This document shows positions 17,252 to 20,269 of a stretch of 20,269 bases of DNA, one piece after another. The stretch is from a virus: the IMG/VR virus record IMGVR_UViG_3300021964_000729, positions 1 through 20,269 of that record. One strand, written 5' to 3'. A program made the translations under genes and the position numbers. Within the stretch, counting starts at the first letter, position 1. Every line of letters starts with the position of its first letter. The notes below the pieces were generated by a model. The model was given only the letters and a program-made list of their open reading frames with translations. It was not told the origin of the DNA and made no database searches.

Positions 17252-17938
17252 TCATTTTTTTTTACTCAACTTATATCCACCAGACCATTTAGTTTGTATT
17301 ATCATTCTGACTTTGCTTTCCCATTTAGATGTTTCTAAATTTTTTTCTTTTATTATATGTGACCATTTTGTTCTCTTAAAAGGAATTAACATACATAATG
17401 GTAATCCTCTAGGTAATCTAAATTTACCTGTCTTTTTAAAACTTATCTGTGGGTGTAAGTGATGATAATAGTCTGTGTTAATCGTACCAGGCATAACATC
17501 AAACACATCACTAAATTCATAGTATAAAGGCAATTGTAACATACTATAACCTTTTTTTGTTTTACAACACCATGGTGACGTGGGTTTTAAAATAAATTTA
17601 TATTGATCTGTAGGTAGATGATCCAAATACTGATCTCTAAGATGATACTCTACGTTAAAATTACTAGGATCAGGAACCTTTATTATTGGTTCTAAATTTT
17701 TATCTTCTGGTATCTCAACATCTATATCTGTCCACAAATAATGTATGTATCCTAAATTAAAATAATCAATTACACCAGGACACTTTTTAATTGTGCCTTC
17801 TAATTTTAGATTTTTAAACCATGGTGGTATTCTTTGAATACTTTTAGTTATAGGATTTAAATCTTCTAATCCATCTTTTTCACACCAAAAAATTACATCT
17901 GGTTTATTATTAAATAATTTATTCCAAATCTTCATCAT
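17252..17938 (-). CDS. Conserved marine phage protein, function unknown
   Basis: 228 aa from the ATG at 17938 (a second ATG follows at 17935); the frame is open to 17983 through a TTG with no ribosome-binding site, so I prefer the ATG, which gives a 20-nt overlap with the upstream gene. Motifs include IPPWFKNLKLEGTIKKCPG (37-55), IDYFNLGYIHYLWTDIDVEI (57-76) and PWCCKTKKGYSMLQLPLYY (122-140). The PWFKN...KKCPGxxDYFxxGYI.xLWxDIxxxI pattern is a family common in T4-like cyanophages and pelagiphages, to my memory without known function. It has many aromatic residues and Cys but no clear enzyme motif. It sits just before the uvsX promoter. Confidence 0.7.
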   Translation of the reverse strand: MMKIWNKLFNNKPDVIFWCEKDGLEDLNPITKSIQRIPPWFKNLKLEGTIKKCPGVIDYFNLGYIHYLWTDIDVEIPEDKNLEPIIKVPDPSNFNVEYHLRDQYLDHLPTDQYKFILKPTSPWCCKTKKGYSMLQLPLYYEFSDVFDVMPGTINTDYYHHLHPQISFKKTGKFRLPRGLPLCMLIPFKRTKWSHIIKEKNLETSKWESKVRMIIQTKWSGGYKLSKKK

Positions 17939-18221
17939 ACGGTAATAAGTAAGTTGGTAAGTTTGCCTCACCTTCCCACTCAAATCTTAATTTTGGATCT
18001 GCTGGTACATATCCTGGTTTAGGGTTTTCATAGTGACTAGGGTCAACCCTTGTCCACAATAATTTTTTCATTTCATCTATATGTACCATACCAAAATCAT
18101 TGTACACTCTACCCTTAAACTTCTCGGCCATAAAGTGTACCATTTCTTTATTGTACTCTATCTTTCTTTGATAATCCCAATACTCTTTTAATTCTTTGTA
18201 TGATTGTTTAGAAATAGCCAT
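17919..18221 (-). CDS. 100-aa unassigned phage protein
   Basis: 100 aa, mixed charge with many aromatics: an N-terminal helix (KQSYKELKEYWDYQRKIEYN), a central VYNDFGMVHIDEMKKLLW (39-56), then a Pro-rich part (PSHYENPKPGYVPADP). I recognise no family. The ATG lies 8 nt after the stop of the CmoA-like gene but without a clear Shine-Dalgarno, so its translation may depend on the preceding gene. It overlaps the next gene by 20 nt. Being in the same transcript as the modification genes does not by itself show a shared function. Confidence 0.6.
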   Translation of the reverse strand: MAISKQSYKELKEYWDYQRKIEYNKEMVHFMAEKFKGRVYNDFGMVHIDEMKKLLWTRVDPSHYENPKPGYVPADPKLRFEWEGEANLPTYLLPYDEDLE

Positions 18222-18229
18222 ATGACTAT

Positions 18230-18907
18230 TTATTTTTTTAAAGCAATCACACCAACGAAATTAAAATTTTGCCAAAAAGTATGTATCTCAAAACCAGCAT
18301 CCTGTACCATTTTATACAACTCTGTTTTTGTATTAGGCTTCATCATATGTCGCAGCTGTACTTCTTTGTCAAGTATTTCTTTATCAGAAAAATGTTGTCT
18401 TTTATAATCGTAAAACATAAAGGTCATCATATCTTGTACCCTTGGATTACAACTAAAAGTTTTTTCTGAAAAGATAAACGCACCACCAGTATTAAGGCCA
18501 TTGTAAATTTTATTAATTACTTCTTGTCTATCTTTTGGTGACATAAATTGTAAAGTAAATATAGAAGTGACCAAAGAACAGTTTTGAAAATCAAACTCTC
18601 TTACATCACCTCTAAAGTAATTTAATTGATGATATTTTTCCTCGTCATGCGGGTAATCGCCAAAAAAATCTTCTTCTATTTCTATGCCAGTATATTGTGC
18701 GTGAGGTATATTCTTTTGATTTTGTTCTATCATACCTTTTAATAGTTTACCTGAAGAACAACCCATATCAACAACTTGCGTATAATCTTCTACGAAATAT
18801 TTTGATAGAGAAAGTATATCACCCCATAACTGACTATAACCACGAACAGATTTGTCTATGTGATTATCAAAGCCTTCTTTACTTGTAGCAAAAGTAAATT
18901 TAGTCAT
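18230..18907 (-). CDS. CmoA-like SAM enzyme, candidate carboxy-SAM synthase
   Basis: 225 aa, class I SAM fold, near E. coli CmoA (247 aa) in length. Shared segments: RGYSQLW (22-28; CmoA PGYS with Tyr39), VVDMGCSSGKLL (45-56) as SAM motif I, FTLQFMSPKDRQEVINKIYNGL and GGAFIFSEK (117-149), and YDYKR (166-170). CmoA turns SAM and prephenate into carboxy-SAM, normally for tRNA cmo5U with CmoB; no CmoB is seen here. Instead the gene overlaps a C5 DNA methyltransferase by 8 nt, behind an excellent AAGGAG, so the product may feed that enzyme. Oddities: by eye, CmoA Arg199 aligns with E182 (an Arg, R186, is one helical turn on) and CmoA Asn132 with I116. Carboxy-SAM, another acidic analogue, or ordinary SAM chemistry are all open. 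Homology to CmoA is strong; activity is inference. Confidence 0.85.
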   Translation of the reverse strand: MTKFTFATSKEGFDNHIDKSVRGYSQLWGDILSLSKYFVEDYTQVVDMGCSSGKLLKGMIEQNQKNIPHAQYTGIEIEEDFFGDYPHDEEKYHQLNYFRGDVREFDFQNCSLVTSIFTLQFMSPKDRQEVINKIYNGLNTGGAFIFSEKTFSCNPRVQDMMTFMFYDYKRQHFSDKEILDKEVQLRHMMKPNTKTELYKMVQDAGFEIHTFWQNFNFVGVIALKK

Positions 18908-20063
18908 TATTTAACTCCTTGTATGGTTTTAATACTTTGTTGTAAACACTTTCAGCAAGTGCTTTCATCATCAACGGTGGTACCATACGACCTATTCGTT
19001 CTGATTGTTGTTTATGTTTACCTGTTAATTTAAAGTCTTCAGGTAATGACATAATTCTTTTTAATTCTTTTATAGTAAACTTTCTATCTTCTATTGGATG
19101 GCAAGTACCAGCAACACCAGCAAGATTACCCATCGCAGTAATTGTTGGACAAGGTTTTCTTAAACTTGATCTTTTTAAATTAAAGTGATGACCTTTATCA
19201 TGGTAATCCATACCAGTCAATACTTTGTCAGGATCCTTTGGCATCTTCATTAAAGTTTTACCTACAGCTTTTTCTGGACTAATCTTATCAAACAAATAAT
19301 CTAGTTCTTCTTTATCTTCATTTATAATATCACTAATCGCTTCACCAAGTGTAGTTTGTACATCATTTTTTTCAGGATATAATTGATACATTGTCATAAA
19401 ATTTAAACCTATCGCATCTGCCACATCTTCTCTTACACCTATAAAGAAACATCTTTTACGAGATTGTGGTACACCAAAATAACTTGCGTTTAATACGTCA
19501 GCGACAACTAGATAACCTATTTCTTCAAATGTATTTTGTATCTTATGAAAATACTCTTTGGCTTCACCCATAGTCAAACCTTCAACATTTTCACCAATGA
19601 TTACTTTTGGTTTTATATCTTTTGCCACTCTTAAAAATTCAAAAAATAAATCTTCTACATTACTCACACCTTTAATATCACTATACTGTTTTGTTTTATT
19701 AAACGCATCTGCGTGTGTATTACCACCACCATGCGATATAGAACCAGCCATACTAAATGCTGAACAAGGTGGACTACCATCTAATATATCTAACTCACTC
19801 ACTTTTACACCAGCTTGTTCCATAAGATATGTGCCTGTCAATTTTTTTATATCACCTGGCACTATTGTAGTGTTAGGATAATTTTCTCTGTAAGTATTTT
19901 GTGCTTCTTCAACAAACTCATTGATCGCTAGTATCTTACCACCAGCCAATCTATAACCTGTTGATGAGCCACCACCACCAGCGAAAGTTGATAGTACATT
20001 AAATAGTGCTTTTTTTTCACTATCTAAAGTATCTTGTAATGTATATCTTTTATAATTGTTCAT
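18900..20063 (-). CDS. Cytosine-C5 DNA methyltransferase with motif X Asn-to-Arg change
   Basis: 387 aa. Motif I VLSTFAGGGGSSTGYRLAGG (23-42), motif IV DGSPPCSAFS (95-104) with catalytic C100, motif VI GENVEGL (157-163) with E158, motif VIII SYFGVPQSRKRCFFIGVR (194-211), a short target-recognition region (about 215-300), then RKPCPTIT (302-309) and motif X SERIGRMVPPLMMKALAES (354-372). All catalytic residues are intact, so it should be active. The near-invariant Asn of IGNxVPP, which lies near the methyl donor, is Arg359; in engineered M.MpeI the same change gives use of carboxy-SAM and 5-carboxymethylcytosine. The next gene is CmoA-like. A strong sigma70-type promoter (20105-20133) precedes it. 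The target site cannot be read from sequence; no restriction partner is visible. Confidence 0.95.
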   Translation of the reverse strand: MNNYKRYTLQDTLDSEKKALFNVLSTFAGGGGSSTGYRLAGGKILAINEFVEEAQNTYRENYPNTTIVPGDIKKLTGTYLMEQAGVKVSELDILDGSPPCSAFSMAGSISHGGGNTHADAFNKTKQYSDIKGVSNVEDLFFEFLRVAKDIKPKVIIGENVEGLTMGEAKEYFHKIQNTFEEIGYLVVADVLNASYFGVPQSRKRCFFIGVREDVADAIGLNFMTMYQLYPEKNDVQTTLGEAISDIINEDKEELDYLFDKISPEKAVGKTLMKMPKDPDKVLTGMDYHDKGHHFNLKRSSLRKPCPTITAMGNLAGVAGTCHPIEDRKFTIKELKRIMSLPEDFKLTGKHKQQSERIGRMVPPLMMKALAESVYNKVLKPYKELNND

Positions 20064-20145
20064 TGTTCCATTTAATTAATAACCATACGACAAAACCGAA
20101 TATCATTATAACATAAAACAGCGATAGAGTCAAGTCTATAATCAT
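20050..20145 (-). CDS. 31-aa single-helix membrane peptide (probable)
   Basis: The ORF starts in an ATGA overlap with the stop of the MT-A70 gene and ends 14 nt inside the C5 methyltransferase gene. The 31 residues begin MIIDLTLSLFYVIMIFGFVV and end LLIKWNNEQL: one hydrophobic segment of about 20 residues and a short basic/polar tail. It looks like a small inner-membrane peptide, but a promoter for the following gene lies within it, so part of its sequence is constrained for another reason. Overlap at both ends supports translation; no homology is known to me. Confidence 0.45.
   Translation of the reverse strand: MIIDLTLSLFYVIMIFGFVVWLLIKWNNEQL
20105..20133 (-). promoter_or_regulatory. Sigma70-type promoter of the C5-methyltransferase/CmoA-like unit
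   Basis: TTGACT (20128-20133), 17-nt spacer, TATAAT (20105-20110) on the minus strand: 11 of 12 consensus bases. The predicted start is near 20098, giving about 35 nt of leader before the ATG at 20063. A dyad ATAGA-N6-TCTAT covers the -35 box and could bind a regulator. It lies inside the small membrane-peptide ORF and would allow expression of the modification pair independent of the MT-A70 gene upstream. Confidence 0.8.
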
Positions 20146-20269
20146 ACTTCGTTTCCCCAACTTTGCCACCCATCTCGTTTTCTACGAGCAAAGAGTTCTA
20201 TATAAGGTCCACTTAACATTTTTTCTATATGTTCATAAACAATATCTGGTTTTCTACTATGTTCTTGTC
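20142..20269 (-). CDS. Partial CDS (C-terminus), MT-A70 family N6-adenine methyltransferase
   Basis: The last 41 codons of a gene that begins beyond the right edge. The visible end contains HSRKPDIVYEHIEKM, then GPYIELFARRKRDGWQSWGN and EV-stop. This HSxKP...xELFARRxxxGWxxWGNEV ending is characteristic of MT-A70 type methyltransferases (METTL3-related; phage and bacterial members methylate adenine in DNA). The catalytic DPPW-type motif would lie upstream, outside the window, so activity cannot be judged. Together with the following C5 methyltransferase it marks a DNA-modification cluster. Confidence 0.85.
   Translation of the reverse strand, partial: QEHSRKPDIVYEHIEKMLSGPYIELFARRKRDGWQSWGNEV

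Follow-up and report, generated by a model that had tools for sequence, protein, structure and literature searches.

Ordinary C5-cytosine methyltransferases carry an asparagine in motif X. This residue is absent from the enzyme encoded at the end of the window (the whole stretch of 20,269 nucleotides of the viral record IMGVR_UViG_3300021964_000729 that was analysed here), which has an arginine, Arg359, instead. The locus raises the question which group this enzyme transfers to cytosine and from which donor it takes it.

A natural system with an arginine at this position is known from Synechococcus phage S-B43 (Yang et al., Nat Commun, 7 Dec 2025; PMC12783734). Its CmoX carboxymethylates cytosine at GC using Cx-SAM from the phage CmoA, and CmoY, an asparagine-synthetase-like ligase, then attaches glycine to the carboxymethylated base. 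In the crystal structure 8YF3 of this enzyme (SpCmoX), Arg350, which stands in place of Asn304 of HhaI, contacts the carboxymethyl group; the wild type uses Cx-SAM only and the R350N variant neither donor (PMC12783734). 5cxmC itself was undetected in the virion DNA of S-B43 (PMC12783734). In addition, PMC12783734 cites the engineered variant M.MpeI N374K as accepting Cx-SAM. Like this variant, the window enzyme has a positively charged residue where motif X normally has Asn, but it is a natural enzyme, whereas M.MpeI N374K is an engineered bacterial methyltransferase with a CG target. The N374R variant of M.MpeI reportedly permits the use of carboxy-SAM as well.

Identity of the CmoX and CmoA genes

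The methyltransferase is encoded by a complete open reading frame within a minus-strand operon (Table 1). As the first-pass annotation had claimed, the motif X arginine comes from a CGT codon: the window reads ACG on the plus strand and CGT on the minus strand, which places Arg359 within SERIGRMVPP. The same annotation held the remaining catalytic motifs to be intact, and this was confirmed for motif I (FAGGGG, residues 27-32) as well as for motifs IV, VI and VIII.

Table 1. Positions of the annotated features in the window.
Feature	Position	Strand	Basis
CmoX, putative DNA cytosine C5-carboxymethyltransferase, 387 aa	18900..20063	-	PF00145 1.5e-56; 8YF3
Arg359 codon, motif X; counterpart of Cx-SAM-binding Arg350 of SpCmoX	18987..18989	-	alignment, PMC12783734
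Motif IV SPPC, residues 97-100; catalytic Cys100 = Cys98 of SpCmoX	19764..19775	-	alignment
Motif VI ENV, residues 158-160; active-site Glu158	19584..19592	-	alignment
Motif VIII QSRKR, residues 200-204; active-site Arg	19452..19466	-	alignment
Part of target recognition region, residues 270-310; SpCmoX (GC) type	19134..19256	-	26/41 identical to SpCmoX
CmoA, carboxy-SAM synthase homologue, 225 aa	18230..18907	-	TIGR00740; 4IWN/4GEK; SpCmoA
CmoA E182...R186; E. coli Arg199 column = Glu, Arg four residues later	18350..18364	-	alignment
C-terminal end of MT-A70 family adenine methyltransferase, cut by window edge	20142..20267	-	reading frame; homologous family PF05063 1.1e-28
Conserved 100-aa protein after CmoA, no family	17919..18221	-	present without CmoA in 36 loci

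Among solved structures, the top sequence match of the enzyme was 8YF3 (E 9.4e-141), and 218 of the 372 residues aligned with SpCmoX were identical (59%). The predicted fold (mean pLDDT 88) again matched 8YF3 best (E 2e-40, TM 0.80/0.93). In the alignment, the column of Arg359 coincides with Arg350 of SpCmoX and Asn304 of HhaI. Phe25, Glu47 and Asp69 of the SpCmoX Cx-SAM pocket are kept as Phe27, Glu49 and Asp71, and the active-site Glu and Arg as Glu158 and Arg202/Arg204. In its target recognition region the enzyme follows the type found in S-B43 and differs from a second type, seen in L112-L118. An arginine in motif X is present in all 117 related viral loci whose alignment covers this column.

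CmoA follows CmoX directly, with an overlap of 8 bp. That a CmoA-like gene lies beside the methyltransferase had been proposed from the sequence, and the database matches agree: the protein hit TIGR00740 with an E-value of 6e-34, albeit with 117.8 bits below the equivalog cut-off of 193.3 bits, and it matched the E. coli CmoA structures 4IWN (E 8e-30) and 4GEK. Homology to E. coli CmoA extends over nearly the whole length. Most of the SAM-binding residues of the E. coli enzyme are kept, and Tyr39, Asp62, Gly64, Ser66, Asp117, Phe137 and Glu164 were all found in the window protein. In contrast, E. coli Arg199, which binds the carboxylate (PMC3663124), has no arginine at its column, where the window protein has Glu182 and an arginine only at position 186. 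This Glu...Arg swap occurs in 67 of the 68 aligned phage CmoA sequences, including SpCmoA. With the same swap and 53-56% identity to the active SpCmoA (125 identical residues), the window protein belongs to the phage type of CmoA.

Compared with the CmoA-CmoX-CmoY system of S-B43, the window shares the C5-methyltransferase fold with its SPPC motif, the Arg350 equivalent, the cofactor residues, the type of target region and a CmoA within the same operon. It differs in gene order (X-A instead of A-Y-X), in having no detected CmoY and in the MT-A70 gene upstream of CmoX. Two adjacent genes for CmoX and CmoA are also present in Synechococcus phage S-CRM01, known here from its genes, although in the order A-X and with other neighbours.

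Association of the motif X arginine with CmoA

If an arginine in motif X were common in enzymes without a CmoA-like neighbour, the proposed switch of donor would lose its footing. Viral contigs were therefore searched for the Arg and Asn forms of motif X, blind to CmoA, and C5-methyltransferases flanked by at least 2 kb on either side were counted. Of the 46 Arg enzymes, 42 had CmoA nearby, against none of the 23 Asn enzymes (Fisher 1.5e-14; the loci are related, so that the counts overstate independence), and every CmoA found beside an Arg enzyme was on its strand. Lys at motif X could hardly be compared, as the pattern scan gave almost no C5-methyltransferases with it. Contigs of bacterial genomes, collected by similarity to the methyltransferase alone, gave the same picture for a CmoA within about 6 kb (Arg 34/37, Asn 0/25, Met 0/13; here, too, relatedness of the loci overstates independence), and for two of the three Arg exceptions CmoA was matched at another place in the genome. 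A quick tree put the Asn enzymes on one side of a branch; with the Met group nested, the Arg label needed two changes. Since Arg tracks CmoA in an independent pattern scan and Asn does not, Arg359 is not a chance substitution, and the original proposal came through this check.

Natural fusions tie the functions of CmoX, CmoA and CmoY together. CmoY is fused to CmoX in L593:4996-7134 and L595:5068-7140 (SAR116, Bradyrhizobium jicamae), and CmoA to CmoX in L645:5116-7407 (Reichenbachiella).

Two phages have other residues at motif X, and the first of them, which lacks both the Arg and CmoA, speaks for the association. The homologue of Methylophilales phage Melnitz-2 (L121) has Leu at motif X and is nested among Arg enzymes; no CmoA match was found in the complete Melnitz genome, and a Tet/JBP (Tet_JBP) oxygenase adjoins the methyltransferase (L121:4010-6194). 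This arrangement would be consistent with a reversion to methyl transfer and subsequent oxidation. Staphylococcus phage vB-SscS-F1 (L124:8643-10465) encodes CmoA and CmoY together with a C5-methyltransferase whose aligned motif X residue is Gly, and either Arg is not the sole route or the F1 alignment is off.

Some of the bacterial loci probably belong to prophages. One Verrucomicrobia MAG contains five CmoX-CmoA pairs (L629, L632, L634, L650, L655), and a chromosomal, non-phage system was considered for such loci. We dismissed it, as L632, the locus tested, adjoins a gene for a phage terminase, which was also seen in L650 and L655. Other loci vary in their set of enzymes. L077:7380-9708 and also L074, L075 and L076 contain CmoX paralogues in tandem whose target recognition regions are of two kinds, with CmoY upstream of them in L076 and L077. 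In L118:8311-9201, a second PF00733 ligase lies beside CmoY in the same operon and possibly uses a different amine substrate.

Transferred group and final base

Taken together, sequence, predicted fold, conserved residues and gene pairing in the window indicate that CmoX and CmoA very probably place a carboxymethyl group on cytosines of the phage DNA. The first-pass annotation had suggested a natural DNA cytosine carboxymethyltransferase that uses carboxy-SAM from a phage CmoA, and the homology to SpCmoX, the equivalence of Arg359 and Arg350 and the association with CmoA all support it. This type of enzyme was already published in December 2025 (PMC12783734), and the window holds a further member of the family. 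While the reactions, the structure, the GC target and the HhaI resistance were established for the homologue SpCmoX (PMC12783734), the window enzyme would be expected to behave in the same way, and perhaps no ligase acts after it. CmoA would make carboxy-SAM, with SAM of the host and prephenate as substrates. A cytosine in the phage DNA would then be flipped out by CmoX, Cys100 would attack C6, and the carboxymethyl group would be moved to C5 with Arg359 holding the carboxylate of the donor. The resulting 5-carboxymethylcytosine probably blocks host restriction nucleases. As the first-pass annotation had proposed, the acidic mark may thus be protective; in S-B43 the base goes on to be ligated to glycine by CmoY. 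With a target recognition region of the SpCmoX type, the window enzyme likely acts on GC; a depletion of GC as a trace of this target was not seen in the window (observed/expected 1.03).

Two observations run counter to the carboxymethyl reading. The window CmoA stays under the equivalog cut-off and has Glu at the Arg199 column, although the active SpCmoA has the same swap, and phage F1 combines CmoA and CmoY with an enzyme lacking the motif X Arg at the aligned position. Both genes could instead have conventional roles, with an ordinary 5-methylcytosine methyltransferase that has undergone a neutral Asn-to-Arg change and a CmoA for tRNA modification. The enzyme indeed shares its fold and the family PF00145 with ordinary methyltransferases, and bacterial CmoA acts in tRNA wobble modification (PMC3663124). 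We regard this explanation as very improbable, as the close homologue SpCmoX takes Cx-SAM only (PMC12783734), CmoA co-occurs with the motif X Arg and not with Asn or Met, and natural fusions join CmoA or CmoY to CmoX.

A different question is whether 5cxmC, once formed, remains the final base. A ligase encoded elsewhere in the genome, either of the CmoY type or RimK-like, could convert it to an amide, which would make free 5cxmC an intermediate; this extends the carboxymethyl reading, and both can hold. CmoY accompanies CmoX in S-B43 and many contigs, and relatives carry a gene for a RimK-like ATP-grasp ligase a few genes upstream. We give such a conversion slightly less than an even chance. 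However, no CmoY amide ligase (PF00733) was found beside CmoX-CmoA or in the contigs of the clade, which are fragments of up to 41 kb. The complete genome of S-CRM01 (178 kb), in which CmoX-CmoA is present, showed neither a PF00733 gene nor a RimK-like gene. The RimK-like ligase was also considered as a dedicated substitute for CmoY and rejected, since besides being missing from S-CRM01 it was found in phages for which CmoA gave no match (Mosig, Melnitz, S-RIM8/12). With no ligase in the clade contigs, fragments as they are, or in S-CRM01, bare 5cxmC may be the end product; that the product of CmoX-CmoA stays unligated is a tentative reading, with a chance somewhat below even.

A two-gene cassette in marine T4-like phages

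By gp41 and UvsX, the nearest phages are pelagiphage HTVC008M and Methylophilales phage Melnitz, and the source of the window is a marine T4-like phage related to them. The usual order in the clade is gp43, MT-A70, CmoX, CmoA, 100-aa gene, uvsX and gp41. MT-A70 and the 100-aa gene were considered as parts of the system and discarded, as homologues of both also occur in sister phages without CmoA in the stretch covered (36 loci). The 100-aa protein had no match in the family search, and its predicted model had no fold match. In 25 of these 36 loci a DruA-family gene (PF14236) is present, and in the loci read (L739:1889-2998, L718:1808-2998, L700:1892-2998) it sits between MT-A70 and the 100-aa gene. 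The occurrence of the neighbours without CmoA, together with DruA in the slot, marks CmoX-CmoA as a two-gene cassette whose locus is variable. It is conceivable, if rather less than an even bet, that no amide ligase takes part in the clade or in S-CRM01, leaving free, negatively charged 5cxmC as the final base in virion DNA, and that the cassette is swapped with the DruA-like gene.

Further genes were noted around the locus. The 100-aa gene is followed in the window by a gene for a 243-aa protein (17252-17983, minus strand), which matches phrog_7084 (unknown function) and occurs in few of the related phages. Some CmoX phages have a Mom-family gene upstream of gp43 (L105:3199-3981; PF25680, 2.7e-52), and adenine hypermodification may coexist with CmoX in these phages.

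For the family, a single residue becomes a usable predictor of the donor, as the motif X Arg goes with CmoA and Asn and Met do not, and many 'DNA methyltransferases' could be re-annotated as carboxymethyltransferases. Particular to the window is the CmoX-CmoA cassette between MT-A70 and the 100-aa gene. It extends the 5cxmC system beyond cyanophages to marine T4-like phages, in a form without a detected ligase, and points to phages in which bare 5cxmC might be found.
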